A stretch of DNA of 64,000 nucleotides from Macrotrachela quadricornifera (lineage: Eukaryota; Rotifera; Eurotatoria; Philodinida; Philodinidae). Position numbers and translations under genes: made by a program. Below the pieces are notes generated by a model. That model did not search any database and was not told where the DNA came from. It worked only from the letters and a program-made list of their open reading frames with translations. Positions 13,686 through 58,596 of this stretch are shown piece by piece. The stretch lies in assembly GCA_022393335.1 (NCBI GenBank), contig JAJEKB010021113.1, forward strand, positions 100,451-164,450, read 5' to 3'. How positions within the stretch are numbered: position 1 is the first letter of the stretch; each line of letters begins with the position of its first letter.

Positions 13686-14001
13686 GTGTCCCAGATTTCT
13701 CCGTCATTTTAAACATTAGGAAATTCAAGCTGGTTTTAAAATGTAGCCAAGATTTGGGGCTACAACTTAACAGAATCTGATTTTTTAATTTTTCTGTAGT
13801 TTGGTTTTTAAAGAACTTCTACGTCATGATATGGTATCAGTAGAGTGTAAGTTCTCAAACATTTTCTCCTCATCTGACATCAATTATGAAATCGAAAAAT
13901 CTGACTCTGTTAAGTTGTAGTATCAAACCTTAGCTATGTTTTAAAACCAGTCCGAGCTTAGTATCTTTCAAAATGGTGGAGAAATCTGAGACACGAAAAT
14001 G
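13686..14001. repeat. Inverted-repeat element with arms of about 105 nt
   Basis: The left arm (about 13686-13792, starting GTCCCAGATTTCTCCGTC) and the reverse complement of the right arm (about 13884-14001) share long stretches. These include CAGATTTCTCC, GGTTTTAAAA and CTACAACTTAACAGA. A roughly 90 nt spacer separates them. No coding potential. Confidence 0.65.
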
Positions 14002-37576: not shown

Positions 37577-38111
37577 GGTGTTGTTTGACTCTTGTTTCAG
37601 GACAGACGTTCTGTAAAAATCATTCATAGTGAATTCGATAGTCTGTTCGACTGGGAAGGTTTCCATTGACAAGTCATCTTTTCAACGATATCTCTCGCAC
37701 ATTGCCCTTCTCGACAGTAACGTTACTTGAACTACATTATCCATATCTCACCATGAGCACTTGTTCGATACATCCTTTTTAATAGCGACTTTCAAGCGCT
37801 ACAAAACCAGGGTTTCAATATTTTGAAAATCCTATTTTGGAGAATTTATCAGCTGTTATCATTTTCTCCGACTTTTGTTAGAAACAATTTTCTCTATTGA
37901 AATCACTATTTAGATTCTTTTCACTGTTTTCTATGATCGTAAATACGCATAATGTAGATCAAGTAACGTCACTGCCGAGAATGGTAATGTGCAAGACATA
38001 TTGTTGAAAAGATGACTCGTAGATGAAAGTTTTACTAGTAGAAAAGGTTATCAAATTCACTATGAACGACGTTTTAGACAACGTCTGTTCTGAACCAAGA
38101 GTCAAACACCA
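37577..38111. repeat. Terminal-inverted-repeat element of about 535 bp
   Basis: The arms are about 165 nt. The left arm (GGTGTTGTTTGACTCTTG...CAGGACAGACGTT...TCATAGTGAATT...GTCATCTTTTCAAC...GTAACGTTACTTGA) is matched in the same order by the reverse complement of 37950-38111. The spacer is about 200 nt and has no coding capacity. It is a MITE by structure. Confidence 0.8.
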
Positions 38112-39667
38112 TCTGAGTATTTAATTGCACTTTTGCTCTTTTCCCTTCATCTTACGATGGACCTTATGGGTTAAGAGGTTTTACAAAATACCATGTATTT
38201 GATCCCTGAATGATCTTCTTTTTATTCTCCTCCATTCTGTATGTAACTCAATTCGGATCAATGACAAAAGGCACAAATAGATCGATTCGGCATCCTATAC
38301 ACCCCTATCCCTTCCTTTTTTGATATGTGGGCATGCTGCTCTATTTTTAAAATAAATACACTCATCCCTTATAGAGGATAAGATATACTAAGTAATAACG
38401 GAGCAATCGAAAGTGGTATATTCACAAGAACTTCGCGGAAGACAATGTGAAATGAATCTATTTCGACGAAATGTTACACTATGTATTTGTTGATAAAAAA
38501 AATACTCGTGCAGAGCAATGGTGCTACTCCAGACTGCAGGACGTCGAAAGCCCATAAGCCAACATTTTCTCTCTTGTTACACAGTTTACTATAAACTAAC
38601 GATAATACTAACGAAACAAATTCATGTTATATAATATTTATTTATTCATTCGGAAGACTTCGACTACTTTACGCACGATGATCATTAGTTTGATCGAAAT
38701 TCTCCATGATTTACCACGTATTTAGAGAAAATCTAGTTGTGAAAGTCATTTTTCAAAAGATTCGGTGTAGTTTTTATTCGAATTTTCACAATTTAACAGA
38801 GGGTATTTTTACTGTTTTTGAGATGGTCGCATACCTTCAACCTATACGCCGCTATTTCTAGAGGAACAAGCAGTTTCGACAGAAACGATCGCGTATATCA
38901 GCTAATAAACTGAGAAACCGAATAAAAAAACATGACGAATCATATATAATATATTCGAACTCAAAAAGGGATTTTAATATGTATGTGGATTCATGGAGAG
39001 ATTGATCAGTCGATAAATCACAAGTTTTTCGTAAACTTTAAGACCTATTCATATTAAAAATCGGTTCAATTCTTAGTAGTAGTAGTAGTAGCATATAATC
39101 TGATCTCGTATTTTACTATGACTTCAGGGTGTATGACTTTCTCAAGAGTTCAGAATTCATGGAATTCGGTCACTGCTGCCATCTTTATGCGATTGTACAG
39201 TACATTGGTCAATTCAGCATTAGAGAAATATATATTGATTTTAGATGAGTTTTTATGCTGAGAAACGTTTGAGTATTCTTACAGAAAATCTTCTGAACCG
39301 GAATTTACTCATTTTTAGCTCTCACAAATTGAGTATGGGTTTGGGCGTGAATGAGGCTATTTCCTTAATCGTAACTCTACGGTCGCAAGTTCTCCAATAG
39401 AAAACAATCGAATAAACCTTATGTTCACAGGCCCATCTAGGAAGAACCGATTTATAGCAAAATACTATATAGATACAGATATGTGAAACTCTGTGCGCAA
39501 ACATATGCATCTTTCGATGTTTTTCTTCCTGCTCCAGATAAGCTACCATTACTATCCTGTACATTAACATTTTCTTAAATAATATGTTGTAAACGGATCT
39601 AGTGCTTGATAAAGAATGAATAGAATAGAGTTTCATCTATAACAGATGTGTGTTGTCAGTTAGAGCT
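38112..39667. other. Intergenic, no gene recognised
   Basis: Only a short trinucleotide tract (AGT repeated about six times, 39076-39093) stands out. The minus-strand frame at 39322-39636 has no motif. Confidence 0.35.
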
Positions 39668-39993
39668 TGATGCACCAATAAAAATCCACGATGTGCCTCA
39701 ATCTTGTATTTATATCATAAAAAAACACAACGTTATTATGAAATAAAATGTTATAGTGTCTAGATCTAGAAAGCGATGTGAATGTATGAGTAAAAGTGCA
39801 TCAGTAATTGTTCACTGGTGCTGATGCGTTCCTCGATTATAGTAGTTTTATATACCTAATTCTGTTAGCATCCTCAACTACGGACCAATTAATAAGCTAA
39901 GCACATCGACATTTTATTTTATAGTGATATGTTGTTTTTCCGCATTATATGTACAAGGTTGAGGCACATTCTCGCTTCCTATTGGTACGTCGA
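39668..39993. repeat. Terminal-inverted-repeat element of about 325 bp
   Basis: The left arm has CACCAATAAAAATCC then GATGTGCCTCAATCTTGTA and ATAAAATGTTATAGTG. The reverse complement of 39895-39993 has ACCAATAGGAAGC, AATGTGCCTCAACCTTGTA and ATAAAATGTCGATGTG. Arm length is about 95 nt with about 85% identity by eye. Non-coding. Confidence 0.65.
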
Positions 39994-42989
39994 GCTTTAA
40001 ATGACAACATACACACATTGACTATCGAGCACTGAATCCGTTTACAGCATGTTATTTAACACAAGACGAGGGTGCGCGATAGTGAGGATACACATAGTTT
40101 ATCTGGAACAGGAAAAAAATATGGAAAGATGCACATGCTTGTGCACAGAATTTCACATACCCATATCTATGAAGTGTAGCTATAGATCAGTTTTTCTAGA
40201 TGGAGATATAAAAGTCTTGACGTCATGAGAAAAAGGTTTGTCCAACATTATGACTGTCGTAAAGAGAAAAACACAATAGTAAAAAATAACCGATTCATCG
40301 ACAGACAGCTATCGGTCTGAGTATTCATTTTCTGTATTATCGTTTTCTTTTTTCTCTTCTTATTCTTCTCTCTTGCTCACTTATACGTGTAAATCTTTGT
40401 TCTTCATCTACCCTTTATCAGTTATTTTTGACGTGATTCTCTTCTCTTCCATTTGTGTCGTGTCGTTTTTACCATACCATTTTTTTTCTTCCTTTCAGTT
40501 ATTAAGCAAGAAAAAAACACATATACTTCCAACAGGAATTATATCCATTATAAAATACCGGTTCTCCAAGGCACGGTAACGATATTTTTTTTTCTTTTGA
40601 ACGATACTTGATTGTCGAAAGTTAAAGACAATATAAAAACGGTATAGTATAAACGTTATATGTCAGTCTTCCTATCCTTTGAATAAATACTTTTGGTGTA
40701 TTACTATCATGGATATTGGAAAAATGAATCACATATATGTCAGAACCGTTACAAAAATCAATCATAAAAACAGTGTGGAAGCCTAAAGTGAGTGATTGAA
40801 CATCATTTAAAGAGCATGTTCACTGAGTAGGGCCGCTTTTATGAGAACTAGAATCCTATTTACAGATCTGCTATGTAAGGCTCTGCTCGATAATTAAGGG
40901 TTGTTCCAGACAAATGGGAACGTTGTATAGTTCTGGCGAACAAAAATGCCAAACATTGAAAGACTCGCTATTCAAGAATAGTGAATCAAAAAAGATTCTG
41001 TCTAATACTGTGAATCTCTGTGAGGTTTTGTCAGAACCTCAATCATAAAAAGGTGTCAATTGAAAAGTGTGAAACAAAGAAGGTTCTGTCCAATAGTCTA
41101 GAACCTTCTAGAATTTTATCAAAAAGTTGCTGAACTATGGAAATCGCTCTCTACAAAGACACCGAAACAGCAAAGATTCTGTCAGTTCTACAACACTCTT
41201 CAAGATTTTTTTTATCAGAATAAGATATTATAGAATAGTTTGAATAAGAAAAAATTGTTGGTTGATCATCTAACAATTATGAAATCTTTTCTTGAAACGC
41301 TTGGAACAAAACAAGTTTCCGGCCATTCGATTTAGAATCTATCCAATGGGGCTATTTCAGCACGTATATTTTCATTGTTTCATATAGCGATACATCATCA
41401 TATCAATTCAATAATTTTTTAGAACAATCGAAAAATGTTTGTACCCACTTCAAAAATCAAGACACAATTAGTTTTTTTCTCTTTTAGCATTGTCACTTTG
41501 TGTCTATCGCTCAACCACTATTTTTTTAAGAATTAGCTAACAGATTTGATGAACTATTTGTAGAAACACATATAGATGCAAATAGGCGTGAAAGCATACA
41601 CACACGACTCACATATCTAGGTAGATATATCAATATACGGTTAGAGGAAGACACTGGAAACCACATGGATATAAACCAATAGGTATATAGTTATAAGTGT
41701 AAATTTATAAGACTACGTACATATATAACTCGAGGAGGAAATAACTAACCTCAAGGATTCAAATTCCCGAAGAACTTAAAAAACTTCAAAGAACTTTACA
41801 GGACCTCAAGAAATTTTCATAAACTTTGTGGTAATCTATGGCATTTTCAAGCCATTAAACGATCCCACGGCTGAAGTTTCTAGTGTTTCCCCATCAATGT
41901 ATAGATATATGGGTAAGTGTTAAGACTGTATAATTATAAAGCTATAGTTATAAGGATATAGTTATAAGATCATAGTGGCCACAGTATAGATACAGGAAGA
42001 AAACCACCAAAGTGACGAGACATTTTATATGCCGAACCCAACGATTTTTGGACAATAAATGAAAATGAATCCTTCACTTTACTGTAGAACTAGTTTTAAT
42101 GGGAAATTGGGAAAAGTTTCACTAGTTTTGTGCAGAACCCTCTTTCAGACAGAACTCTTTTTCAGGTTTCTCTGCAGTGCCCGAAGTCAGAGTTGACCAG
42201 AAGGTTCTGTAAACTAGTGGCGTAACCAAGAGAAAGTATGGACAGGATGATCTTGTCCACCAAGAGATTTGAGCATCTTCGTCGGATTTTATAGTTTTCG
42301 TCATCTTCGTTACGCCAATGATCTGAATAGTAATGTAATGACGCTTAGAACCTCCTTAAGCTCTTCACAGTCATTTAAGTGATTCTATGAACATAAATTT
42401 TAGCTACGAGTTGCCGGATTTTTCATATCAAAGAAATGACACGAAAGGAAGTATGCGAGTTCCACACTTCAGCTTCAAAGAAGCTGCGTTAATCAGATAT
42501 TTTTGGTAAAATTTTAAAGAATTAAATATAGCAGTTTTCAATTCTCTTTTCGTTACACTCACTGCAACAGTACATTGTCTTGTTTCTCCGTTTATAATGT
42601 AACAAAGTCTATCATGTTGCATATTTTAAAATCTGCAAAGATAATCCTATTAGTTTTTTAATATCACATCAAAACGTGTTTGGAAACACTACGGTTTTGA
42701 CTGGTTCTTATAAAAAACACAAAAGTCAAATCGTTCATTTAGCTTTGCAATACCACCATTTCAGCTGTTTACAAAAGTCGAGTAAATTTTCTAATTTCCA
42801 TGATGGAAAGAAACAAGCGGAAACTACGGTCTAAACCAAATTTTTTTTCTCGAGCAAAGAACAGTGGAATTATGTTTCTCAAAAATAAGAACGATTTTAG
42901 TAATTCGGTTCATTTATTGATAATCAACCGGCATTAGTATTAGTCACACTATTTATTTTTCTAATTGCATCATTTCTAGATCATAAAAA
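39994..42989. other. Intergenic, with degenerate short repeats
   Basis: No gene is recognised. From about 40880 to 41340 there is a degenerate repeat built on AAGATTCTGTC...AGAACCT words, with a related composition near 62750-63020. At 41630-41970 short ATATAGTTATAAG words recur. The right end carries the leader of the giant gene; an acceptor-like CATTTCTAG ends at 42979. Confidence 0.4.
42970..42989 (+). promoter_or_regulatory. Probable splice acceptor of a leader exon or trans-spliced leader
   Basis: TCATTTCTAG ends at 42979 and is followed by a 10 nt leader and the ATG of the giant gene. A pyrimidine-containing AG so close to the start fits either a short 5' intron or spliced-leader addition, which is known in bdelloid rotifers. 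No donor or leader gene was identified here. Confidence 0.35.
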
Positions 42990-45900
42990 ATGATAACTGA
43001 AAAAAATAAGAAACCGTCAGAAACATTGTACATTATTATCAATGAACAAGATCTTAATAATGAAGATACTCTCCAAAATGAATACAAACAAATTGTTCAA
43101 AATTATATTAAGAATAGTTATTCAACAATTGAACAAACGATTGAAGATTATCTCAACAAAAAGACATCATATCTTTTCGGTATTACAAACTTACATGAAT
43201 CGAATGCTGGTAAAAATGAAGAAGAAGAAGAAAACGATAACAATCAACATTGGATTAATTTTAATGTAATTAAATCCAATGGAAAACTATTTGTATTTAT
43301 TATTGATTCAGTTGAATGTAAGGTAGATGAAAATGAGAAAAAGATTCAGTTTAAAAAGTTATTAACAAATACGATAAAAGAAGATATTGAGTTTTTTGAA
43401 TATGATAATCGAGATATATCTGGCATTTTTGTTAGAAATATTGACATTGCATTTAGTCATATTGAAAATTTCATTCATTTCTTAAACAATGAAAAACAAG
43501 AAATAGAAAGAAAATTTAAAGAATCGAAATTTTTTGAGAAAAATAATCAGTCAATCAAATTTGAAAAATTAATTGTAGAGCAAGGATTAACAATGAGAAT
43601 ACGAACAAAAGTAACATTGCAAAAAATTTTATCTCCATTGAAATCTATTATTGATAGTGATAGTGAATATAAATTACCAGGACAGGATCAATTAAAAATG
43701 CTCAGTAGCATATTGGCTAGTAAAAATTTTTTACCAAGAGACAATGATAAAATTGATCTTATAAAAGAAGTAATTCATTTTTTGGTCATATTTAAAGATA
43801 GAGGACAAGAATTGAATGGCGAAATAAAGAAAAATATTAAAAAGTATTTTCTAGAAAATCGAAATAAATATCAACAAAATATTAATGAATTTAATACCAG
43901 GTTACATGAAAATAGTCGAGATACAATTATTCAAGGTTGTTTAGATTTAGCTTTAAGAGATCGAATAACATTCTTAGTTAATATCAATAGATTAATACCA
44001 GAGGAAATCAATCTAAACGATATTGATCAATTTTTCAAATTATTTAGTGAAAAACATCAACAACAAAAATTAGAAAATCAAAAAAATGAATTAGAAAATC
44101 AATTCAAAATTGTTAAGGAAGAGTCAATTAGAATCAGTAATGAGATAAGTGACATACAAGAAAAACTTGATTACTACACAAGAATATCTGAAATTAGTCA
44201 AAAATTGAATATTAATGATTTGATTATTATATTAGGAGATAAACTTGAATTATATAATAATAAAGAAGACTTTTCTTTTTCTCAACAAACACTTGAGAAA
44301 ATAATAGAAATTGGAAAAATAACAGAAAATAATCAAGTAGCTTTAGCAATTCTTAAAATATTAAATTTCAATGAAAAACTTTTATCTGATACTGAACAGA
44401 AACTTGAAGAATTAGAGGAAATATTAGATAATATTTTACCGCAAATTTCACAGGAGAAGACTCGACTTATTTTAATGCTCTCAGAAAAACTGAAAACTAT
44501 CAATAATTCAAGTTTATTAAAATTTCTACATCAGACATTAATCGACAATCCGCATTTGACAGAACGTAAAGAAGCATTGGAGATTTTACAATCATCAAAA
44601 GTTGAGCTAGATAATTTGAAATATATTAATGAAACAATTAAATTAGAAGAAAAATGTTTAAAAAATGATTCCAGTATTGTTGAAGATTGTTTAAAACATG
44701 TTAAAATGAAAAATAAACTCACATTTAATTGTTTTGAAGAGTTAAAAAAATATTTTCATGTTAACAAAACTATTCAAACAATCATCGAAATTATTGAACA
44801 AGAAATACAAAATTTACCAAAATGTTTTATTGAAAATATTTTAAAATACATTCAATCATCACCATGGAAAACTACTAATCAAATGAATATATTTCAACTG
44901 AGTAAATTATTATTTAAAAATAAACAAATCAATTTAAATGATATTCCAAATATTGGAGAATTAATTGACAATTACAAATCTTATGGAGATGAAATTTTTG
45001 ATTTATTATTTCTTGAATATCAAAATGGAAATGATATTCCAAAAGATCTTCTTCTCAAATTGAAAACAGCTGGAAAAACCAATGAATATGCACAAAATCT
45101 AATCAAATTAATAGAAAAAACTCCTACAGATATTGATATATTAAAAAATCCAAGAATTAGTCTAAAAGCACGAAAAACTGCTCTAGAGAATATTATCCAA
45201 AACAAACAAAATTATACATCATCTACAATGAAATTATTACAATCACTAATCATATTTGATATCAACTTAAGAACCGATGCATTTAAAGCATTGATCACAA
45301 TATTACCAAATAATTTCAGTCAAACAATTGATTTTAATATTGATTTAATTGAAATTGGAAAATGTATCGAAAACGACGAGAATCTTTCCATTGATGATTT
45401 AACTCGTTTACTATATAAGGATAAAATGAATGAAAATTTCGCAGGAGTTCTACCAATAATAATAAACCGAATTGTAAATTCACAAGTTTCTGTTGATGAG
45501 GCTAACCGAGCTTTAGAATTATTAACTGAAATATCTGGTGTAAAACAAAATGAAAAAATCATTTACGATCAATTGCAATATTTGTTGAACATTGCGTTTG
45601 ATACAACGAAGAACAAACTTCGGGAAAATATTATTAGAATTATTCAAAATTCAATAAATGAATATGAACAAAATAATATTCAAATATTTAAAGATCAAAT
45701 TGAATCTTGTTTAGCAGATGAATTACGTGAACTTGTCATTTTACAAACATTAAAATTCGATGGTAATTCATTGAAGAATTTGAAAAGAAGTGTTCAACAA
45801 GGATGTGCAATAACTGAAGATCAAGTGAATATATTAATTGATACTCTGATAAATTTTGATGAACAGAGACAAAAGCAATATTTCTACTCAGAAATAACTG

Positions 45901-48900
45901 AAATATTATTTGAAATAAATCTTCGACAAGGTCTTAGCAATGTGAATATCCATCGAATAAGCCAAAATTTAAAACTATTAAACTTCATTGATGTTATTGG
46001 GATTCTGACTATTGCTTTAAGTCGGAATATACGATTTTCCGATGAAATCATGCAAAATTTTTGGCAAAAATTCTCTTCAATTGATCATCAGAAAGATCAG
46101 ATATTAAAAAATTATTTAATTCGTGCAACAGCAGCAACAGTTATCACTCAAGAGAAATTTGTACCGATAAACATATTGGAAAAGATTGTAGATTTTCTAA
46201 CTGACCAAACCAACACAATTGAAAGGAGAATTCTTTGTGCAAAGATTTTATCCAAAGGATTAAAACAAATTTCAAACTATTCTCAAATAACACCAATCAT
46301 GACTTCATTGAAACAAGTTGCATTATTAAAACGAAACAATCGAAATGAAGATTTATTAAATAAACTTATATTTGAAATTTTAGAAAATCATTTAGAGAAT
46401 AGTTTTTTAAAAGAATATTATATTCAATTTAAAACCCGGATTGCCAATTCTAATGAAGAATTAAACGCACTCGATAATTTTATGTTCAACAATGAAAATA
46501 TTGTCTCTAATTGTGAAAAATTCCATCTATTGTGTACATTGAATAACACATTATTCAATCGAGAAAGAATTGATTCAACTATTTTCGAACAATTTCCTGT
46601 GAATGAATGGCGAAAAGAAATTTTATCTAGTGATTTATTAGCTGGAACATTTAAATTACTTCAACTCGATCATGGAATCAATGAATTCGAATTAGAAAAA
46701 TTTCGAAATTATATTCATTTAATTAATGATTTTATTCTCACCCTTGATTCGAAAAATTATTCAATTGAAAATTTATTACAAACATTAATTGATAAACAAA
46801 ATCTTTATTTCATTCCTCTTCAAATGATCAATGATATTTTATTAATGTTATTTGAATCAAATGTAACAGAAGCATTGGATATTGTTCAACAAGAACAACA
46901 AACATTTCTCATACAATTACGTCAATTATGGTTAGAAAAACGAATGAAACATTTTGCTATCGAATTCACCAATGAAGAATTGATAGAATTCAATACATAT
47001 TTACCATATAGAGCAGAAATAATTAATTTTGTTTTCAGTCAAATTCATGAAAATATTAAAATCAATGAATTAATTTCATTTTTCAGAAAACTATTTCAAT
47101 CTGGTTTAACCATTGCAAGTAGAGAATTTTTTCTAACAAAAGAAATAACAAAAAAAATTAGTTTAAATACATTAACATTCAAATTAAATGATCGATTAGT
47201 TTGTCTATTATTAACAAATAAATTTGCCAGTTATGCTCAATATTTTCATGATAGTGAAAGTTATAAATTAGGAACAAACTTTTCATCATTTGTAAGAAAT
47301 GCATACAATCAAGCAGATACGACATATTGGTATACAGCAGAAGATATCACACAAATCTCATCGGAATTAATGAAAGAATTTGATCTTCGAATTACTCAAG
47401 CATTAGATCAACAAACTAATCGAGATCTCTCGACAATATTAATGGAAATTTTAAATGAATATAAAAAAGATTTTAAATCAACAATTATTCCATTGAATAT
47501 CGCGGAAAATCATTGGATTGTCGTAGCAATAATCTACAATCGAAATAAACAGGAACACGTTGTATTATACAAAGATTCCTTAGGTGAAAAAAATCTTGTT
47601 AAAGAAAGAGAAACAATACAAAAAATCTTTCTTGAACAATTAAAAAATGTCGAATTTAAATTTCATCGATCATGTGAACAATTGGACGGATTTAATTGTG
47701 GAGTATTTACTCTCGCAAATATGAATTATATGGCAAAGAATTTATCGAATAAAAATCAACAATCATTTATTGATAATTTTCAAAATTCGAATTTTACTAC
47801 ACAGACACAAGCGAATGAATATCGTCGTGAACATTTTCCAAAAATGTATGCATTGAGTTTATTTCAATCTTTCAAACGACAAAAAATCGTCAATCATCAT
47901 TCAATTGAATTGAAATTCCTAAAATCTCTCCTTGAAATAAACTGTCCGATCATAATTGATGAAACAAGTCTATTTGATAATGGATTACATTTATCAATTT
48001 GTTTACCAAACGAAGAGAAATTAATTAAACAAAAAGATTATCAATATTTGTACGTTATTGAAGCAGCAGAAACATCAGTTGATTTTCGAACTGATAGTGA
48101 TTTAAAGAAAAAAATTCAAAATTTACTGAAAATCAAAGAATATTATACAATAGAAAAGAATATTATGAAAATATTAGATCAAAATTTATCAATTATTAAT
48201 GAAAATAAAGTAAAGAAATTAGATTCAAAAGAATTATCAAAGAAAATAACTGATGAAGATATTGAAACTCTTTTAAACCAACTTTGTGTTGAAGTTAATC
48301 AATCGAATAAACAAATTTTATGTACAAATTTAGGTTTATCTAATAATCAATTAATTAAAACTGATAAACCAATTGATATAAAAGAATATGAAATAGTTAA
48401 GAAATTACATCGAAAATTAACAAAAGTTTTACATTCTGGTTGGACATTGAAATCAATCAAACAAATAATTAATCATATTGATTCAACAAATAAAATTCAA
48501 TGTTTATTTGATGCCTTAGACCCAACCTATGAATATGGTTTAAAAGAATTTGATGCTAATATCAAAGGAAAAAATTTAATCGATATTTTGACATCGTCAT
48601 CTTCATGGTTCTTCTCTGATAACTTAACAAAACAAGTACATGACTTAGCAATATTTCAAATATTCAAAGGAACTTATGATAAAAATTTACAACAATTAAA
48701 AGATGATATATCAGAATTAAATCAAAATCAGAATATTTCTTTTTTGAAAGATGAAAAATTCATCGAAGAATATAAAAAAATTCAAATTGCATACACAAAT
48801 AAATCATCAATATGTTCAGATTTTGGTTCGATTGAAAAATGGTCAACATCAAATATAAAAACCTGGAGTGAAAAGATCAAAACATCAATCTCAAATGATA

Positions 48901-51900
48901 TTAGTCAATATGAAAAAATTGCAGTTGTAAAAAGAGCTGTCGAAATTACGAGTAAATTTCCACCACGTGAAATTCAATTATTATCTGTACTGATAATGCT
49001 TAATTCTGAAGAAGAGAAAGGACGTCTAGCACAAATTAATACTGGTGAAGGTAAAACAACAATTGTTGCAATGTTAGCAGCAATCAAAGCTCTGGAAGGA
49101 CATCAAGTTGATATTGTTACTAGTTCACCAGAATTAGCCACACCACAATCAATCCAACAGAAAGAATTTTATAAACAATTTAATTTAACTGTCTCACATA
49201 ATGGAAATGATTCTATTGATATTAAAGAACGATATAAGGCTGATATTGTTTATGGTGCAGCAGGAAATTTTCAAGGAGATATTTTACGAGATGAATACAG
49301 TAAATTAGGCACTCGAAATGGTCGACAATGTGATGTTGCAATTGTTGATGAAGTTGATTCAATGTTAATTGATGGAAAAAATCATATTGTAATGTTGTCT
49401 TCACCAATGCCAGCAATGGATCATTTAGAGCCACTTTTAGCAGCAATTTGGACACAAATTGGAGAATTATCGAAATGTATTAAAGAAATAAATGGAATAA
49501 CTTATTATGTTGATCAACCGGATATATTCAACGATGATGGAACAATCAAATCTAATATTATTGAAAGTGCTTCTCCGATCAATGGTACGAAAGAAGATTT
49601 TATTAAAACTTGTACGGAAAAATATATAAGAAAAGTGATTCGAGATGTTGAACATTTATCAGATGATGAAGATAAAAAAATCCCTGAGAAATATCCAGAA
49701 ATCAAAATTCCGAAACATTTAAGACAATTAGTAGTAGAAAGTCAACTAACAAAATGGATTGATAGTGCAATTTATGCTAAATATCGATGTCAACATGAAC
49801 AACATTACATTCTTCGAGATGGAAAAATTGCGCCAGTAGATGCGAGTAATACAGGTATTGTACAAGCAAATATGCATTGGAATAATGGATTACATCAATT
49901 TCTACAAATCAAACATGGTGCAAAGATTTCAGCTGAAAGTTTAACAACAAATTTTCTTTCCAATGTCACTTATTTTAAACGATATGGTTCAAATATTTAT
50001 GGATTAACTGGCACACTTGGAAGTGAAAATGCTCAGAAATTATTACAAAATATTTATAATGTTGATAGTGTTATTATTCCACCTTTTAAAAAGAAACAAT
50101 ATCACGAATTAACACCAATTATCGTCAATAATGAAAATGATTGGTATGAGAATATTGTTCAAAGTTCAATCAATAAACTTAATAATGGTCGAGGTGTCTT
50201 AGTAATTACTAAATACATTAAAGAAGTTGATGAAATTAAAAATCGACTGATTAAAGCTGGATATAATCAATCGAAAATTAAAACCTATCGAACTGAACAT
50301 GAGTCAAAAACGGTTGCAGAACAAATGACACCTGGTGAAATAATTATTTCGACGAATATTGCTGGAAGAGGAACAGATATTCGAGCGAATAAAATTGAAA
50401 TCAATGGAGGATTACATGTTTTAGTTACATTTCTACCACCAAATGAACGAGTTGAACAACAAAATGTTGGAAGAACATCAAGAACAGGAAATAAAGGAAC
50501 AGGACAATTTATTTTATTACAAAAACAAGAAAATGATTATCTTAAATTAAAAGAAATTCGAAATCTAGAAGAAGAAATTGGAATACACATGGGTGAGAAA
50601 GAAATAGAAAGAGTAACAAATAAAGATGCAATATTTAAAGAATTTTGTAAACTACTCACGGAAATTGGTGGAAATTTTAGTTTTAGTAAAAATATAGAAT
50701 TGAAAAATCAAATCCGAGCAGTGGAAGATAGATTTGGTATTTGGTTAAAATTCCAAGAGACAACAACAACGAAAGAAAAAATGTTAGATAGATTTAAGAT
50801 CTTTCGACAAGAAATATTAACTGATAAAAAGAACGGCAATCTAATCAAGAATCCATATTTTCATGTTTTAATTGGAAATGAATATTTAGATGGTAAAATG
50901 AACAAAACAAGACAAGATGCTATTAATGAATTTACAAGAGCAATACAATTAGATGAACCTTTTCAAGTCAATGCCTATTACAATCGTGGATATACACGAC
51001 TTGCTCAATATGGCAGTGATTGTAAAAAAAATAAAGAAGAAATTGACAAAGCAGTTGAAGATTTTAAACGAGCAAAACAAATTATAAATGATAATTTTGA
51101 ACCAATGTTACATATTATTCAACAAGCATCAAATTCCGAAGCTTTATCTGAACAAGTATCACATAAACTGACATTATTTGGTATACAAAAAAATACAATT
51201 GAATCAGCTATTGGAATTGGAAAAGAAGGAGTGAATAATGAAATACAAGAATTAAAAAAACAGAAAGAACGAATAGATATCAAAGAAGAAGATAAAAATA
51301 ATATTGATAAACAAATTCAATTTTTAGAACAAAATAGAGAATCACAAGAACTTGGAATTATTGGTCAAGCAAGAAAAAAAGATCACAATATTGAAATTGA
51401 ACATGTTGAAATTGAACAATCATTACCACAAGATCAAGATATCACATTTTATAAAGAAGAAATTGACGAATATAAAAATAATGGATTTCGAGGATCTTTC
51501 AAAATAAAAGAAATCAAACCCATTGATTGGAAGGCAGTTATTACTGTTGCAGCGCTAGGTCTAGCACAATTAGTTGCAGGAGCAGCCCTTGCTGTATTTA
51601 CTCTTGGTGCTGGTGCTTCTATTGGTATGGGATTAATCACTGAAGGAGTGAGTGATCTCATTACGGCAGTTAAAGACGGTATTATTAATCGAGATTTTAG
51701 TTGGGTATCATATGGAATACAAAAAGCTATTAGTTTAACTGTATCCCTTGTATGTGCCGGATTGGGCGCAATAAAAGATGCTGCAAAAACGGCAGTTGCT
51801 GGAGTCAAAAGTATTGGTCAAGTAATGACAACAACAGTAAAAGCAGGGTGGAAAATAGCGGCAAAAGCAATTGGAACAGGTTTAGCTAAAGGTGTAGCGA

Positions 51901-53657
51901 AAGAATTAGTAACACAACTTGTTGATTATGGTGTGAGTAAAACTTTGATGCCAGCTATACAAGACGAAGTAATGAAACGAATTGAACAACCAATACAAAA
52001 TGCATTACTAGCTAATGTTCGTGTGAAACAAATGTTAGAATTAGATGGTGTAAATCGAAATAGTTATTATGAACGTTTAATTAAAGATCGAGCAATGGAA
52101 TTGTTGAATTCACAAAAACAACAAAATGCACTACTCACTATAACTGTTGGTATAGGTAAAGGAATAGCTACACAGAAAATAGCAGGTTTATCGACAGTAT
52201 TGACAACTTATGAAGTGACGCAAGCCTTAGCAGAATTAGAGAAATTCGTACCTGATTTCATAGAAAAACTAAATGAAGTAATAGATAAAATATATGAAGA
52301 ACAAAAAATTGATGAACAACAATCGAAAAATCAAAAGAACTCAAATGAAACTCAAAAAAATCAAGTAGACAAACAAAATGCAGCTGATAGAAAAGAAAAG
52401 AACAAAGAAGAAATATCTCAAAACTATGCATCGAATTATACTCCAGAAGCATCAACTGACGACATTGATCTTAATAATGACAAAGAACAAAAACAAATTC
52501 AATTGGAAAGAAGAAGTAAATCTTCAGATGTGTTATGTGGAACATTAGCAACGAGCGTATCTGCAAAAATGTGTAATATTATACAGAAAAAACTAATTAC
52601 ACCTGCTACTCAGACAGGTATCAGTTATAGTATGACAAAATTAACATCAGGATTAGATAAAAGTTTACAAGATGAAATTGGACTTTATCAAGCGGAAAGA
52701 AGAATTGAATTTTCTCAAAATCGAGATAAAAATAATCGAATAGGAAAAGAGTATAAGGAAGGTATGAAGGACGAAAAAGCACAAGCCAAAGCTAATCAAA
52801 TGATAGATGATTTAAAAAATGGGGGAGAAGCTGGATTACCACATTTAGGACCATTAAGCGACGCAGCTGGAAGACCGATAAAAGTATTAGATGAAAATGG
52901 ACAACTTGTACGCATCATTGGAGAAGACAAAGGTGGTGAACCTATCGAAGTTCAATATCATAAACCAAATGAAAAGAATCCTTCCGGACATTGGACTTTA
53001 CCCGGAGGAAAAGAGCCAACTCTTGACAATACTGGAAAAAATAATTGTTTGTTTAATGTTGTTGCGCAAGCAACAGAAAAAGATCCCAATCAATTAAGAC
53101 AAGAAACTGCTGTCAGAATGGAAGCTGATAAGGAAAACTTTGCAAATCAAGCTCGTGATATCACACGATTAGAGCAGGATAAACGGGATGCATTAACTAT
53201 GGGAGGACAAAAAATTTATAGATCTTTACATCCAGCTGAAGACTCTGACGAGGGCTTAGAACCTCGTAAAGAAGATGGATCATTGAGTCCAAGAACGCAC
53301 ATTGCTGATGGAAGCGCAGAAAGCCCATACATCTCAGCCACTACAGATCTAAAAGTTGCAAAAAAGTGGGCCAATAAAACCGAAGGTGGCAGAGTAGCGG
53401 AGATAGACACGGATATAGATCCAGAACTTGGACAAAACATTATAGATTTAAATCAACCAGACCAACTACAACAACATATACTTGATAGGCCTGGTAGCGC
53501 AACTCGAAAGGGACGATCGATAAGCAATGACCGAGTTGCACAAGATGCAAGAAAATCTAAAGAAGTTCTTGTAAAAGGAAGCATTAAGAAAGGAAGTTAT
53601 AAGATAATACATCGATCTCCATCCAGATCCCCATCCAGAAAAGAAGAAAATCCATGA
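42990..53657 (+). CDS. Giant multidomain protein: Ulp1-like protease, SecA-type motor, TPR, OTU-like and ART-like domains (3,555 aa)
   Basis: One uninterrupted exon. In order: residues 75-160, a degenerate Ulp1-like fold (HW at 87-88, D106, Ser144 where Cys is expected); 350-405, coiled coil; to about 1400, helical repeats; about 1440-1610, Ulp1/C48 cysteine protease with His1508, Asp1529, Gln1564 and Cys1570 (DGFNCG); about 1960-2520, SecA-type DEAD motor with GEGKT (2019-2023), VDEVDS (2119-2124), YGLTGTLG (2337-2344), NIAGRGTDI (2456-2464) and GRTSRTG (2494-2500); about 2620-2680, TPR-like; about 2845-2985, Gly/Ala-rich hydrophobic; 3334-3360, GHW then NNCLF (Cys3353); about 3405-3535, ART-like (Arg3411, Ser3449/Thr3451, Glu3525). 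The tail has RSPSRSPSRK. No signal peptide. Expected activities are de-ubiquitin/SUMO-type proteolysis, ATP-driven unfolding or translocation, and NAD-dependent modification. An effector- or toxin-like role is inferred. AATAAA lies at 53756. Confidence 0.9.
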   Translation: MITEKNKKPSETLYIIINEQDLNNEDTLQNEYKQIVQNYIKNSYSTIEQTIEDYLNKKTSYLFGITNLHESNAGKNEEEEENDNNQHWINFNVIKSNGKLFVFIIDSVECKVDENEKKIQFKKLLTNTIKEDIEFFEYDNRDISGIFVRNIDIAFSHIENFIHFLNNEKQEIERKFKESKFFEKNNQSIKFEKLIVEQGLTMRIRTKVTLQKILSPLKSIIDSDSEYKLPGQDQLKMLSSILASKNFLPRDNDKIDLIKEVIHFLVIFKDRGQELNGEIKKNIKKYFLENRNKYQQNINEFNTRLHENSRDTIIQGCLDLALRDRITFLVNINRLIPEEINLNDIDQFFKLFSEKHQQQKLENQKNELENQFKIVKEESIRISNEISDIQEKLDYYTRISEISQKLNINDLIIILGDKLELYNNKEDFSFSQQTLEKIIEIGKITENNQVALAILKILNFNEKLLSDTEQKLEELEEILDNILPQISQEKTRLILMLSEKLKTINNSSLLKFLHQTLIDNPHLTERKEALEILQSSKVELDNLKYINETIKLEEKCLKNDSSIVEDCLKHVKMKNKLTFNCFEELKKYFHVNKTIQTIIEIIEQEIQNLPKCFIENILKYIQSSPWKTTNQMNIFQLSKLLFKNKQINLNDIPNIGELIDNYKSYGDEIFDLLFLEYQNGNDIPKDLLLKLKTAGKTNEYAQNLIKLIEKTPTDIDILKNPRISLKARKTALENIIQNKQNYTSSTMKLLQSLIIFDINLRTDAFKALITILPNNFSQTIDFNIDLIEIGKCIENDENLSIDDLTRLLYKDKMNENFAGVLPIIINRIVNSQVSVDEANRALELLTEISGVKQNEKIIYDQLQYLLNIAFDTTKNKLRENIIRIIQNSINEYEQNNIQIFKDQIESCLADELRELVILQTLKFDGNSLKNLKRSVQQGCAITEDQVNILIDTLINFDEQRQKQYFYSEITEILFEINLRQGLSNVNIHRISQNLKLLNFIDVIGILTIALSRNIRFSDEIMQNFWQKFSSIDHQKDQILKNYLIRATAATVITQEKFVPINILEKIVDFLTDQTNTIERRILCAKILSKGLKQISNYSQITPIMTSLKQVALLKRNNRNEDLLNKLIFEILENHLENSFLKEYYIQFKTRIANSNEELNALDNFMFNNENIVSNCEKFHLLCTLNNTLFNRERIDSTIFEQFPVNEWRKEILSSDLLAGTFKLLQLDHGINEFELEKFRNYIHLINDFILTLDSKNYSIENLLQTLIDKQNLYFIPLQMINDILLMLFESNVTEALDIVQQEQQTFLIQLRQLWLEKRMKHFAIEFTNEELIEFNTYLPYRAEIINFVFSQIHENIKINELISFFRKLFQSGLTIASREFFLTKEITKKISLNTLTFKLNDRLVCLLLTNKFASYAQYFHDSESYKLGTNFSSFVRNAYNQADTTYWYTAEDITQISSELMKEFDLRITQALDQQTNRDLSTILMEILNEYKKDFKSTIIPLNIAENHWIVVAIIYNRNKQEHVVLYKDSLGEKNLVKERETIQKIFLEQLKNVEFKFHRSCEQLDGFNCGVFTLANMNYMAKNLSNKNQQSFIDNFQNSNFTTQTQANEYRREHFPKMYALSLFQSFKRQKIVNHHSIELKFLKSLLEINCPIIIDETSLFDNGLHLSICLPNEEKLIKQKDYQYLYVIEAAETSVDFRTDSDLKKKIQNLLKIKEYYTIEKNIMKILDQNLSIINENKVKKLDSKELSKKITDEDIETLLNQLCVEVNQSNKQILCTNLGLSNNQLIKTDKPIDIKEYEIVKKLHRKLTKVLHSGWTLKSIKQIINHIDSTNKIQCLFDALDPTYEYGLKEFDANIKGKNLIDILTSSSSWFFSDNLTKQVHDLAIFQIFKGTYDKNLQQLKDDISELNQNQNISFLKDEKFIEEYKKIQIAYTNKSSICSDFGSIEKWSTSNIKTWSEKIKTSISNDISQYEKIAVVKRAVEITSKFPPREIQLLSVLIMLNSEEEKGRLAQINTGEGKTTIVAMLAAIKALEGHQVDIVTSSPELATPQSIQQKEFYKQFNLTVSHNGNDSIDIKERYKADIVYGAAGNFQGDILRDEYSKLGTRNGRQCDVAIVDEVDSMLIDGKNHIVMLSSPMPAMDHLEPLLAAIWTQIGELSKCIKEINGITYYVDQPDIFNDDGTIKSNIIESASPINGTKEDFIKTCTEKYIRKVIRDVEHLSDDEDKKIPEKYPEIKIPKHLRQLVVESQLTKWIDSAIYAKYRCQHEQHYILRDGKIAPVDASNTGIVQANMHWNNGLHQFLQIKHGAKISAESLTTNFLSNVTYFKRYGSNIYGLTGTLGSENAQKLLQNIYNVDSVIIPPFKKKQYHELTPIIVNNENDWYENIVQSSINKLNNGRGVLVITKYIKEVDEIKNRLIKAGYNQSKIKTYRTEHESKTVAEQMTPGEIIISTNIAGRGTDIRANKIEINGGLHVLVTFLPPNERVEQQNVGRTSRTGNKGTGQFILLQKQENDYLKLKEIRNLEEEIGIHMGEKEIERVTNKDAIFKEFCKLLTEIGGNFSFSKNIELKNQIRAVEDRFGIWLKFQETTTTKEKMLDRFKIFRQEILTDKKNGNLIKNPYFHVLIGNEYLDGKMNKTRQDAINEFTRAIQLDEPFQVNAYYNRGYTRLAQYGSDCKKNKEEIDKAVEDFKRAKQIINDNFEPMLHIIQQASNSEALSEQVSHKLTLFGIQKNTIESAIGIGKEGVNNEIQELKKQKERIDIKEEDKNNIDKQIQFLEQNRESQELGIIGQARKKDHNIEIEHVEIEQSLPQDQDITFYKEEIDEYKNNGFRGSFKIKEIKPIDWKAVITVAALGLAQLVAGAALAVFTLGAGASIGMGLITEGVSDLITAVKDGIINRDFSWVSYGIQKAISLTVSLVCAGLGAIKDAAKTAVAGVKSIGQVMTTTVKAGWKIAAKAIGTGLAKGVAKELVTQLVDYGVSKTLMPAIQDEVMKRIEQPIQNALLANVRVKQMLELDGVNRNSYYERLIKDRAMELLNSQKQQNALLTITVGIGKGIATQKIAGLSTVLTTYEVTQALAELEKFVPDFIEKLNEVIDKIYEEQKIDEQQSKNQKNSNETQKNQVDKQNAADRKEKNKEEISQNYASNYTPEASTDDIDLNNDKEQKQIQLERRSKSSDVLCGTLATSVSAKMCNIIQKKLITPATQTGISYSMTKLTSGLDKSLQDEIGLYQAERRIEFSQNRDKNNRIGKEYKEGMKDEKAQAKANQMIDDLKNGGEAGLPHLGPLSDAAGRPIKVLDENGQLVRIIGEDKGGEPIEVQYHKPNEKNPSGHWTLPGGKEPTLDNTGKNNCLFNVVAQATEKDPNQLRQETAVRMEADKENFANQARDITRLEQDKRDALTMGGQKIYRSLHPAEDSDEGLEPRKEDGSLSPRTHIADGSAESPYISATTDLKVAKKWANKTEGGRVAEIDTDIDPELGQNIIDLNQPDQLQQHILDRPGSATRKGRSISNDRVAQDARKSKEVLVKGSIKKGSYKIIHRSPSRSPSRKEENP

Positions 53658-55838
53658 ACCATTCCATGTCAGTCACGACTGGTCGTGCACTATCGAATTT
53701 CTTTTTTTAAAGTTCTCAAATTACACGACCAAGAAACGAGGCTTACAAATGTTAAAATAAATCAAAATAAAAGAAGCATAGTTTTGAAATGGTTTTAATA
53801 AGTAGATAAAAGCACCAATTTTTCTTTTCGTTGTTCATATCTTTTTCTTAGAGAAAATATCTAATATATAACCCAGTGCGATTATCGATGTAACAGTATG
53901 GAGATCCTTTCATTTTTTTGTATGTTGATGTCCTTGAGTTCATATATCATTTAGATAGTGTTGCTTTGTATGTTTTCTGCAAACAATTATTCATTATGTT
54001 CTGTTCTATATTTTATCCTTAATCATCAGTTTTTTGTATTCTTTTAATTTTTTTGTCATTTTGTTGCACTAGTTCTCTTTCAATTCAGCTAGTTCATAAT
54101 ATGTATCTTTTTTTTTCTAAAATAAAGTGACAATAGTTATTGGGCCGGAAACGAGTTTTTATGTTTAGGAATATACAAAGAAGTAGCATACATGATCACC
54201 TCGTAGCTCTTTAACACTGAGATCTGACGTGTCAAGTCATATGTTATTTGAATTTCGTGGTCACTCTTAGGAACACTTGCTTTTAAATTTCGATCATAAA
54301 ATTGACATAAAATTATACACTGAGAATAACGAATTAGTTTTGAGGGTGAGGGTGAGTATATTTGATTATTCTAAAGAGTTTAAGAATAAGCTAACATGGC
54401 ATTTGTCCACAGTGGATGCATGATACATTCCAACACATGTATCTGCTTGAAATTGTCAGCAAGAACGAAAGAATTGTTAGAAAACTTCATAAAATCAAAG
54501 CAAAAAATCGAACCTATATTTTCCGATATCTGTTCGGCTAACTGTAAGTATCAAGTTGGCTTTGCGTCACCTGAATTGCACCGTAGTTAGTCATCATGTT
54601 TTGAAAGATATTCAAATTCTGTTCTTGACTAGGATCGGTACTAATCTTTGGTTGTTTCTATTCCTTAGAGAGTGCGGTTTACGGTCACTAATTAGCGAAA
54701 AAACTATGTCTATTGGAATTAATCAGTTAGAAAGAATAAAAGCAATTTTTTTCTCAAATGAAAGCAAGGTAATACGAAAAAAATGGAAACACGTTTGCTT
54801 CTCGATTTATATGTTTGTCGCAGGCGAAAGGTTAATGGTAAAGAATTTAAGAAAATGGTTTTTGCGGTTAAGGAATCGACTAGTATACTTAGTTTTTTGT
54901 TCCAGTAAGCACTCTTTTAAAAAACAAACATGGCTTCTTTCAAGTTTGATTAAAAGTGATTAGAGTCGATTAATCGATTCGTATAGTTATTTTTCTACAT
55001 TGATGATTTTGTATCACTGAAAAATCACTCAGTCATAATTTCTAATAAAACTTGCTAACTGCTAGTGACTACCGTGAATGCGAAGTCGAAGTCAGGATAA
55101 AGCTTCATTGAGATATTCTTCCGTTTTTTTTCGAAGAATTACGTATTCTTTGTAAGCTTAATTGAAGAACAATCAAGAGACGTATATTTGTGCTTCTTTA
55201 GAAATAATGTCTAAAGGACTTATCGGAGGAATTAGCCCGTAATGTATTTTTGAGCAGAATCACGATTTAAGTTTGTAATCTTTACTCTGTCCAAGGGACT
55301 GTTCGTTGGTAGAGCCGGGCCTCTGTATATGGTGTCATTCGAGATTGTTTTTATTACAAATATCTCTTTATCAATAACTTTACGTCGGATCTTCAGATAA
55401 CACTTATCGTGTGCATGGATAAGTAAAGAAAGTGACCGCTGGAAATCCATGGATTGGCTTTCTCTAAACGTTAACGGTAAAAAGTAAACTAAGATGTGTT
55501 TTAGTCAAGGGGAAAACTACGGAATTCTGGAATCTTACGGAATCACATAGAATCTTGAAATTAAAAATTTATTTCTTTCGGTATATATTTTAGCTTAACA
55601 TCATTAAACTTGTAAGAACATAGAATATAATTTAAAAACGTGAACATGAAAAAAAACGAGATTTGAATATAAACATTTAAAAAAAACATTTGGTAATAGA
55701 AGAAGGATTGTCAGTAAGGTCATTCCTACTTAAATATAATGTAACATACTTAACAATAAAAAGAAGACTAAATATAAATTCTAAAAAAAAACAATTTGTC
55801 ATTTGTATAGAAATATCACAATAGTATGCATTGAATAT
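53658..55838. other. Intergenic, 3' of the giant gene
   Basis: The 3' untranslated region with an AATAAA at 53756-53761 lies at the left. Open frames at 54396-54963 and 55232-55450 have no recognisable motif. Confidence 0.35.
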
Positions 55839-55981
55839 GTCGCAGGACAGATTAAAATGTAGTTCAATTTAAAATAGTCCCAGTTCAGATTAAAGTTTTG
55901 ATTTGACTCAGTACAAATTAAAATTTTAATCTGAACTAGAACCAATATAAATTGAACTACATTTTAATCTGTCCTGCGACA
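55839..55981. repeat. Fold-back palindrome of about 143 bp
   Basis: TGTCGCAGGACAGATTAAAATGTAGTTCAATTT on the left is the reverse complement of the right end, ATTGAACTACATTTTAATCTGTCCTGCGACA. The arms are about 65 nt with a short middle. Non-coding. Confidence 0.8.
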
Positions 55982-58596
55982 AATACAGGATGATTCACCT
56001 ATTTTTACTAATTTTAGTCAATTTATTGTATTTCTATATGATTGAATAGAACGTCGATTGCTCTATTCAATGGTATAGTTTTCATTTGATTTATCTCATG
56101 TGTTAGTTAAAAAATGAGAAAAGTTTCGCGAAGTAAGCAAAAAATGTTTTGTTTTTCTATTAAATTTTAAGATATTTCTTTCAAGTAATTCGAGTAATTA
56201 TAACGTATTTGACAAATGAATATATTTCAGTTTTATATAGTTCGATAGAGAAATGAATTCGCCATCGAACTATATATTTTTTCGGAATTTATTTTTCACT
56301 TTGACTGAAAATTCAGTGAATATTTAGGACATTTTTTTAATAAAACTCATTTATTTATCTTTGTCGAGTAAATTACAAGATAATCCACCTAATTTCACTA
56401 GTTTTATTTTTGTGTACTCAAAAAGTGAGTACACTCTAGAATCGGTCAGTGTGTCCGTCCGGCCGTCCGTTTACACGATAACTCTTCACAATGGCATTCG
56501 ATTGAGCTGAAATTTTGTGCACACAATTGTCTCATCAATATCTCGGTCGAGTTCGAAGATGAGAAAGATTCGACAAGAAATGGCTGAGTTATCGAAAAAA
56601 TTGTCATTATTCACCAGACCATCGCTGAGGGAGGATACGGGGATTTTTTCAAAAAAAAATTTTTTCTCAGAAATACTTTAAATATATATGAATCGACTCA
56701 GTTTGTAACGCTGATTCCGAATATGATATTAGTTTTGAATGAAATCATACGTTTTTAAGTGAAAGCTGCCTAAACAAGGTCCCAAAATGGACAAAAACTC
56801 TATCCACAAACGGAATTGCCTAGATATGTCTCAGATGAGCAATAATTTCAGGGTTTTCCCAAATGCCTGGTTTGTAGCTAATCGAAAGGACTATCGAAGG
56901 GTAAAAACCCGAATCGATAGCTAATAATATCGGTGATTTATTATGAAAATACTGATGCTTGTATCTATCATATATCTCTTATAAATTCATGAGGTTGCTT
57001 TCGATCGTAATCCTGTTAGATATAAATACAAATTCATTCGAAAATAACTCTTCTTACCAAGTTTTACAAGCTGGACACGAATCTAAACTCAAATTTTTGT
57101 GATTTTTAAAGATATTATATCACTCTGAGAGTAGAGTCAGTGATCACCGGCTATGAGCGCATACTGTGTGACCCATGCTAGCTTAGTATGCCTGTATTTT
57201 CTCCTTGCAATTTAGTGACAAGGGATGTATCGTGATGAGATTTATGTCTTACAGAAACAAAGAAGTACAGGGCCTAGTGCATCACGTGAGAAAAGTTCAA
57301 ATACTCCCTCTCGAAATATGCTATATCACTGAATTTACGCAGTTTTTGGCTTATAATACTTTTTTATCCCATAATTTACTCTCTGAGTGTAATGAATTTC
57401 TAGATCAAACTGTTTTCCACCCAATTGAGACCTTCTTTAGCTCAAAGGGTCAAATCGTTCATGAGACAAAGTTATTTTCTATTGATTTTTCGTAAGCCGG
57501 AGGGGTGTGTGGTGCGCACTGGCCCCCTTATTTACGCCCTTGGATGGAACAGTAACCAATAAAAATGAAGTTATGAGAAAAATGGTTTTTCATAAAGACA
57601 ATTTTTCATGATAGTTTTGGCGTTCAAACATTCCATAATGACTCATCTGATTCACACACTTTTTGCAGCATACATAACTTTCGGATAAAATCTGAAGTTT
57701 TCGCATTTATTATTTTCAAAAGATGCACTGTCAAAAGTTCTACACAAACTGTAAAAATTGTATAGACAAATGCTTATTACAAAACACAACAGTCTGCCAA
57801 CATTTTTATTATCACCTGACGAATTTTTATGTCATTTTTTTCAAAGCACTGAAGTTTGATTTCTTTTATTGTATTTTTTATTTAAAATTTTTTCATATTA
57901 AACAAGTGCCTATATATATAAAATACTTGACATCTACTATACAGACATATAATGGAATCAAATTAATGTTGTGTAGCTTTATAATATGATTTAAAACAAA
58001 AAATTGGAGAAATACTTTTAACGTCCACCGTATCAATAGTGATGCAACATAAAGTTAATTTCTTTTTATTCTGACTGTTTTCTAAAGATATAATCGAGGT
58101 TAATAAATAGGAGAAATAAAAAAATGTTCAATTCTTTGTCTTATTGAAACAACAACAACACTTAAATATAACAAATGTATTTTTCCAAAATCTCACTAGA
58201 TGGGGCTCAAAGATTCGTAGGTGGGGCTGAGCTCTATTTGGCCCATCCCTGGTTGTGTCACTGTTTAATTGTAATGAGAAATGACTGTTTCATTGAATAT
58301 TTATAAATCACTTAATTGATAAAAATGCATATTATACTTATGTGTATAAATCATACAATACAGACGTCAATATGAAACAATTAAGTGTATGATAAACATA
58401 TGGGCTACTCTCATTTTTTTTTCATTCATACATTTGATATATGAATGAAAATTTATGACGAGCATGGCCGACGAAGTCAACCGCTTTGTCAATAAATGAT
58501 ATCATATATAAGAGACTGAAATTTACTATTTATTTCAATAAGTTAAGCAATTCTCTTAATAATAAGTTAGTTAGGATCAGATAGGGCCCTTAAAAT
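55982..58596. other. Repeat-derived intergenic stretch
   Basis: A direct repeat, ACAGGATGATTCACCTATTT (55985) and ACAAGATAATCCACCTAATT (56375), brackets about 390 bp. Inside is a hairpin, ATATAGTTCGAT...ATCGAACTATAT (56236-56274). After it, 56410-56660 holds GTGTGTCCGTCCGGCCGTCCG and a GAGCTGAAATTTTG block, of a kind found in dispersed repeats of several invertebrates. The 57205-57495 and 57723-57989 frames have no motif. Confidence 0.4.

Follow-up and report, generated by a model that had tools for sequence, protein, structure and literature searches.

A giant SecA-family protein with a conserved body and an exchangeable, ADP-ribosyltransferase-like tail in the bdelloid rotifer Macrotrachela quadricornifera

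What is a protein of 3,555 amino acids, which joins a protease, a SecA-type motor and a toxin-like C-terminus in one intronless frame of 10.7 kb, doing in the genome of a rotifer? The window analysed here, i.e. the whole 64,000-nucleotide stretch of DNA that contains the gene, spans positions 100451-164450 of a contig that measures 351,235 nt, within the Macrotrachela quadricornifera assembly of 450 Mb. The protein consists of a conserved body followed by an exchangeable C-terminal tail, and is kin to giant proteins of intracellular bacteria.

Domain architecture of the giant protein

The features recognized in the giant gene, all on the forward strand, are as follows.

42990..53657 (+): single-frame giant gene, 3,555 amino acids without internal stop; body, residues 1-3406; tail, residues 3407-3555
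43065..43610 (+): degenerate second CE-clan domain lacking the catalytic Cys (residues 26-207; hhalign)
43707..47249 (+): long region common to near relatives (residues 240-1420; BLAST coverage)
47298..47939 (+): CE-clan (Ulp1/RickCE-type) protease (residues 1437-1650; fold match to OtDUB, RickCE and CidB DUB)
48813..50579 (+): SecA-type ATPase motor (residues 1942-2530)
50694..51380 (+): TPR-like helical repeats (residues 2569-2797)
51531..51773 (+): two hydrophobic helices, possible membrane hairpin (residues 2848-2928; Kyte-Doolittle)
52788..53207 (+): predicted circularly permuted OTU-like thiol protease (residues 3267-3406; His3334, Cys3353)
53202..53207 (+): Gly3405-Gly3406, body/tail boundary and proposed cleavage site (Gly-Gly in 80/90 relatives)
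53208..53654 (+): exchangeable tail, here ART-like (residues 3407-3555; R3411, S3449, E3525)

The frame reported by the first-pass annotation is indeed free of stops throughout 42990..53657, and the Ulp1-type protease, SecA motor, TPR-like part, OTU motif and ART-like tail which it had listed are all present. The domain order, for which it knew of no described precedent, is on the other hand shared by bdelloid relatives among the best 120 of 279 matches examined, and the idea of a unique order is consequently abandoned; a protein from a Rickettsia sp. metagenome-assembled genome (P0028) has its catalytic modules in common with the giant, except that the CE protease is placed earlier in the chain. 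The long region at residues 240-1420 has no Pfam match above cut-off.

The CE-clan (C48) domain contains His1508, Asp1529, Gln1564 and Cys1570 in this order and shares both these catalytic residues and its fold with RickCE, OtDUB and the CidB DUB, while the Pfam RickCE_cat score falls just below cut-off. Unlike these proteases, the CE domain of the giant is one internal domain of a longer chain, accompanied by a degenerate N-terminal copy; residues 26-207 align to the family's own CE domain with a probability of 98.4% (hhalign, E 5.7e-15). A further difference concerns the catalytic Cys: it is intact in the Macrotrachela giant, but seven of the 18 near relatives have another residue in its place. 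The His (17/18), Asp (18/18) and Gln (18/18) are nevertheless kept, and a binding role for this domain in some copies is thereby suggested. The motor at residues 1942-2530 matches the SecA fold, its Lys K2022 is kept in all 120 relatives and the motif residues are near-invariant. It is nevertheless not a canonical SecA, the best NCBIfam score being 185 bits against a cut-off of 862. Residues 2848-2928 are alone within the protein in exceeding a Kyte-Doolittle value of 1.6, and the top hydrophobic stretch lies in the same region in nine of ten relatives checked, the exception being P0044 where it is N-terminal. These two helices are predicted to enter a membrane as a hairpin.

A conserved body, a Gly-Gly boundary and unrelated tails

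Of 121 proteins, 96 were matched by a profile of residues 3270-3409, and in 90 of these the match extended to profile position 120 or beyond. Within the 22-residue stretch searched, Gly-Gly is present in 80 of these 90 relatives and absent in 10. When compared all-against-all (phmmer, E <= 1e-3), the 135-residue segments preceding the boundary form one component with 2,838 of 4,005 pairs linked, while the 88 tails of at least 30 residues (two shorter ones being dropped) fall into 34 components with only 164 of 3,828 pairs linked, a number raised by near-identical copies kept in the comparison. The largest of the tail components comprises 29 tails, and the tails from named bdelloids are spread over eight components. 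Of the 50 residues immediately preceding Gly-Gly, 44 are identical between the giant (P0001) and P0002 of Rotaria magnacalcarata, as against 10 of the 50 that follow it; the same drop, from 28-44 to 6-15 identical residues of 50, is seen in all ten near relatives compared. Even within one species, Adineta steineri, P0006 and P0007 are 92.5% identical before Gly-Gly and 29% (36/125) after, and the P0006 tail is an Endonuclea_NS_2 nuclease (Pfam, 4.6e-10). A conserved body with unrelated C-terminal tails, as defines polymorphic toxins, is thus found here inside an animal genome, and since the tail is an exchangeable cassette following Gly-Gly, 'polymorphic-toxin-like' describes the giant better than a single fused machine. 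The GC content of the tail (0.405) is only marginally above that of the highest body window (0.403), so composition is no proof of a recently acquired cassette. A GHPxxH-like, unassigned type of tail is common to rotifers, moths, a bee and Rickettsia (P0002, P0003, P0007, P0008, P0009, P0019, P0028, P0040, P0042, P0053 and the Macrotrachela paralogue L093) and belongs to the component of 29/88 tails; the P0002 tail of this type has no Pfam match.

The segment directly preceding the boundary looks like a circularly permuted OTU protease. An 11-row alignment of this segment, searched as a profile against solved structures, matched OTUD5 (1.8e-6 and 6.3e-5), OTU1 (0.0039), OTUD3 (0.52) and OTUD1 (0.86); the weak matches also include unrelated chains. 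The matches to OTUD5 and OTU1 cover the part around the Cys and that leading up to the His, with the two parts swapped in the giant. In OTUD5 (3pfy), residues 33-107 of the chain are matched by profile positions 61-128, which surround the Cys, and residues 119-173 by positions 15-67, which run up to the His; this order is the reverse of that in the giant family, where the His precedes the Cys. An ordinary OTU, with the Cys half before the His half, was rejected for this reason, and the domain is called permuted OTU-like. Taken singly, the two partial matches to OTUD5 are weak (0.59 and 0.05); only their combination reaches 1.8e-6, and it is on this combination that the call is based. Among the 11 members, 7 are matched by Pfam OTU at E <= 1 (best 2.3e-4), the segment of the Macrotrachela giant itself not being one of them. 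All of the 19 near relatives carry His3334, Cys3353, Gly3405 and Gly3406, and among the 120 relatives the His is retained in 82 of 84 and the Cys in 81 of 82 that align at these positions. The structure model of the segment has a pLDDT mostly of 74-92. Foldseek with VIA-align, run on the C-terminal model, listed helical proteins alone; as helices fill this list, the missing OTU and ART folds there do not count as evidence. In viral contigs, 11 matches to the permuted OTU pattern were obtained and none was confirmed.

The tail itself, residues 3407-3555, is predicted to be an ADP-ribosyltransferase (ART) toxin. The R, S and E residues are aligned and kept in five of five related tails, and the best match of a profile of these five tails among solved structures is 9zdm, a 'Probable Rhs-family protein' (2.2e-11), while TreX (0.33), an ADP-ribosyltransferase and Scabin follow at 0.33 to 1.7. 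The second-best match, a ferric uptake regulator (E 0.01), is probably due to chance. The R-S-E pattern is thus shared with the ART tips of Rhs-family proteins (9zdm, TreX), with the difference that the present tail sits on a SecA giant in an animal genome. Pfam DUF7587 scores 8e-5 on the tail, below its cut-off, and the pLDDT of the tail in the C-terminal model is about 30. No giant of similar length carries the same ART tail (E <= 0.001) among 150 candidates sharing five-residue words; distant ART tails do exist, for instance on P0098.

Relatives, genomic copies and origin of the locus

Residues 1400-2650 gave 279 protein matches (E <= 1e-5) among 4,409 candidates. The best 120 of these comprise 35 from bdelloids (Rotaria, Adineta and Didymodactylos), 12 from arthropods (moths, butterflies, a bee, mosquitoes, a sandfly and an ostracod), three from liver fluke, three from Tetrahymena, six from bacteria (the Rickettsia sp. 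metagenome-assembled genome, Tisiphia, a Megaera plasmid, Amoebophilus and kin), two labelled as eukaryote gene models and 59 without organism name. A scan of GTDB genomes yielded at least 554 confirmed matches, of which 79 loci were kept; Rickettsiaceae, Midichloriaceae, Amoebophilaceae, Legionellaceae and Parachlamydiales are found among the matches listed, mixed with housekeeping SecA. A tree was built from 157 of 197 SecA-core fragments by a quick LG+G4 search, which gave long-branch warnings; it excludes eight identical or near-identical rotifer sequences and 32 bacterial loci, most of the latter being housekeeping SecA, and the region is missing from P0056. A single branch (SH-aLRT 100) separates 151 sequences from six canonical SecA sequences. 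The Macrotrachela giant pairs with P0002 (support 99), inside a seven-member clade of Rotaria, Adineta and unnamed sequences (100), itself within a 20-member clade of bdelloid and unnamed sequences (97) that lies not far from those of moths, a bee and Rickettsia. The giant hence belongs to the same clade as Amoebophilus Aasi_1610 and the insect giants, apart from housekeeping SecA. The bdelloid label requires 12 changes on the tree (nine of them forced by starred branches), which implies that entry or exchange took place more than once. We infer that the family has passed between intracellular bacteria and animals, the tree being compatible with either direction.

That the gene, or the whole window, is contamination from a bacterial symbiont might be suspected from the intronless frame of 10.7 kb and from the relatives in Rickettsia, Megaera and Amoebophilus, but this is barely credible given the length of the contig and of the assembly to which it belongs, the position of a paralogue on a contig of 1.89 Mb, and the assignment of the nearest giants to Rotaria and Adineta, one of them located on a 13.9 Mb contig. 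The window also contains a patatin gene (10752-12806) closest to Rotaria sp. Silwood2 (66%); together with the contig context, this kinship identifies the window as bdelloid DNA, near Rotaria. Bacterial contamination, against which the first-pass annotation had cautioned, is accordingly rejected. This patatin-like phospholipase gene, on the reverse strand, has bdelloids as its nearest relatives, with arbuscular mycorrhizal fungi (Gigaspora and kin) also listed, and is possibly a second transferred gene.

The Macrotrachela genome contains 56 SecA_DEAD matches, of which 16 have E <= 1.8e-15, and 12 of these 16, the studied gene included, lie in open frames of at least 1,900 amino acids. Many of the 40 weaker matches (E >1.8e-15) lie in frames of 2,000-3,900 amino acids and a few in frames of 8,700-13,700; as L106, which holds one weak match, has no BLAST match to the giant, the weaker 40 may be other helicases. 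Examination of 16 stretches, corresponding to the other 15 strong matches and the next in rank, revealed the OTU-like module in six, i.e. in seven genes when the studied giant is counted. Gly-Gly is present in four of the seven and absent in three, and the Cys is kept in six; in L098, which also lacks Gly-Gly, it is replaced by Ser. One of the genes, L100, is split over two frames. Only one of the 21 tail pairs among the seven is alike (E <= 0.01), giving six kinds of tail, which include the ART of the studied gene, a tail resembling those of P0014 and P0020 (L092) and the GHPxxH type (L093). Comparison with the 59% identical paralogue L093 gives a dN/dS of 0.25 over 1,776 codons of the body (residues 1590-3406; dS about 1.0), of 0.18 for SecA, 0.48 for the end of the CE region and 0.13 over the 140 codons of the OTU part, the lowest of the parts measured. 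Purifying selection has consequently acted between the two copies, over a time which, with a dS of about 1, may include that before the entry of the genes into the rotifer. In three other SecA-family genes of this genome (L103, L104 and L105), the similarity is split into short in-frame blocks, which is consistent with introns and in turn with a long residence in the animal.

Relatives linked to phages are found in two IMG/VR contigs, L080 and L081, which encode SecA giants of 3,554 and 3,556 amino acids with a CE-like part (in L080, RickCE_cat 2.6e-4, below cut-off) and without an OTU module. The giants are located at L080:7872-19990 and L081:7872-18985, downstream of a terminase-like gene (Terminase_6C 0.0012, below cut-off). 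Aligned in blocks of 100 columns, the two agree at 92-100% for the greater part of the first 2,900 columns, with some blocks at 82-88%; thereafter the similarity declines until the ends are unrelated. The L080 tail combines WHH (1.1e-16) and Colicin-DNase (2.3e-11), the next, overlapping ORF encodes SMI1_KNR4 (SUKH-1; 3.7e-23), and a further ORF repeats the pre-tail sequence with another ending, like an orphan cassette. In L081 both the tail, which is unassigned, and the next ORF differ from those of L080. The WHH tail with its SUKH-1 neighbor conforms to the standard arrangement of toxin and immunity genes and illustrates what form the family can take in bacteria. Beside the Macrotrachela giant, a Pfam scan of both 4.8 kb flanks in six frames detected no immunity gene; the giant would therefore work like a polymorphic toxin system without being filed as a classical member. 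A TPR/coiled-coil ORF lies directly upstream of the giants in both L080 and L081, and in the rotifer window a 586-aa ORF with long Ala/Glu-rich coiled-coil repeats and tandem repeats is located at 35389-37149 on the reverse strand.

Proposed release of the tail, alternative readings and significance

How may these parts work together? Ubiquitin is cleaved after its Gly-Gly by OTU deubiquitinases, and it is on this basis that a release of the tail at Gly3406 is proposed. In the mechanism which we favor, the N-terminal part would recognize something in the cell and the CE domains would bind, or trim and strip, ubiquitin-like tags, after which an ATP-driven SecA-type clamp would thread the C-terminus, as the first-pass annotation had suggested, the permuted OTU would cut at Gly-Gly, after Gly3406, and the freed ART, whose activity is predicted, would modify its target. 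To the reading of the giant as a body with an exchangeable tail, here a predicted ART toxin that is threaded by the SecA motor and likely freed by the permuted OTU, we assign a probability of about 0.6. As many relatives come from intracellular bacteria, the most economical role would be that the animal deploys the giant inside its own cells against such bacteria or other invaders. The tail differs from those of the closest relatives and is predicted to be ADP-ribosylating, which points to a likely animal-owned weapon with an exchangeable warhead. The initial suggestion of an effector or defense protein taken over by the animal fits in that the gene resides in bdelloid DNA and its family is tied to intracellular bacteria; the defensive role, for its part, is a deduction. 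That bdelloids own a whole polymorphic-toxin arsenal of SecA giants, with warheads freed by a permuted OTU at a ubiquitin-like Gly-Gly, is a tentative extension to which we give somewhat less than even odds.

Alternatively, the OTU part may remove ubiquitin from other proteins, as the CE domain would, making the chain one multi-enzyme effector from which no tail is released. Both folds are best known as deubiquitinases, and the structures to which the CE domain comes closest in fold are such enzymes. OTU domains in large endosymbiont proteins have also been proposed, in the available part of PMC3482391, to act on host ubiquitin. Against this, the OTU is located directly before the drop in similarity, with Gly-Gly at the boundary, and thus occupies the place of the release peptidase in polymorphic toxins as described in the same text, which makes an effector without release unlikely, if still a serious competitor. 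The low dN/dS of the SecA part and its near-invariant motifs make the motor the best conserved part of the protein, as might be expected of a SecA-like motor domesticated for the animal's own protein handling, with tails that are incidental; the toxin-type tails (nuclease, ART-like) on otherwise similar bodies, their fast turnover and an NCBIfam SecA score far under its cut-off nevertheless render this highly improbable. It is very unlikely, too, that the giant travels as cargo on a mobile or selfish element, so that tail turnover would serve the element rather than the animal. Such cargo would agree with the patchy spread over animals, ciliates and bacteria, the many copies in the Macrotrachela genome and the SecA included in the phage WO module (PMC5062602, as far as available), yet the six-frame Pfam scan of the 4.8 kb flanks detected no transposase domain, and no direct repeats of at least 30 nt occur in 38000-58000, where a single inverted pair, near 55.9 kb, was found. 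This pair (55832-55987) has 74-nt arms, 88% complementary and 8 nt apart, and lies 2.2 kb after the giant gene. We therefore retain release of an exchangeable toxin tail as the preferred reading.

Parts of this family are already in print. The accessible texts of PMC3639933 and PMC9680635 describe the giant secA genes wBol1_1091/wBol1_1092 of Wolbachia with homologues in insects, Daphnia, ciliates and Amoebophilus, and that of PMC5062602 places SecA in the eukaryotic association module of phage WO. The transfers are read in PMC3639933, as far as its text is available, as having proceeded from eukaryotes to Wolbachia and Amoebophilus, i.e. against an entry from bacteria. Like the Macrotrachela giant, the Wolbachia and insect giants described there are very long and have a SecA motor common to animals and intracellular bacteria, and Amoebophilus Aasi_1610, which PMC3639933 names (our P0065), falls in the same clade. 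The giants are interpreted in that text as transferred SecA genes, and the words 'toxin', 'rotifer' and 'C-termin' are absent from the text searched; tail exchange, the permuted OTU and the bdelloids are added here. Amoebophilus effectors with SecA-like domains, like polymorphic toxins generally, are treated in PMC3482391, and SecA-like domains of giant actinobacterial toxins are mentioned in PMC8195603. Polymorphic toxin systems, as outlined in the former, share with the giant a conserved body, a peptidase or pre-toxin part before the boundary (in the giant, the predicted permuted OTU) and a variable C-terminal toxin, whereas the giant is animal-encoded, has a SecA motor in its body and no adjoining immunity gene was found. 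In the open-access literature searched, which excludes subscription papers and preprints, no paper covers bdelloid SecA giants, exchangeable tails, the Gly-Gly boundary or the permuted OTU. Giant SecA genes are hence already known from insects and Wolbachia, while the swappable tails, the Gly-Gly boundary, the permuted OTU and the bdelloid set are new relative to this literature.

Since 2013, long secA-like genes common to insects and Wolbachia have figured in the literature, where they were read as SecA moving between kingdoms. If the body is a toxin-delivery chassis, the scattered annotations of 'protein translocase subunit SecA' in animals would become one family of likely weapons, and tail exchange, a hallmark of bacterial warfare, would be at work inside animal genomes. 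A new type of release peptidase would then be named, and, were the permuted OTU to free each tail, a deubiquitinase fold would have been turned into the switch that releases a weapon inside animal cells. A function would also be suggested for such genes in Wolbachia, Rickettsia, Megaera and Amoebophilus.
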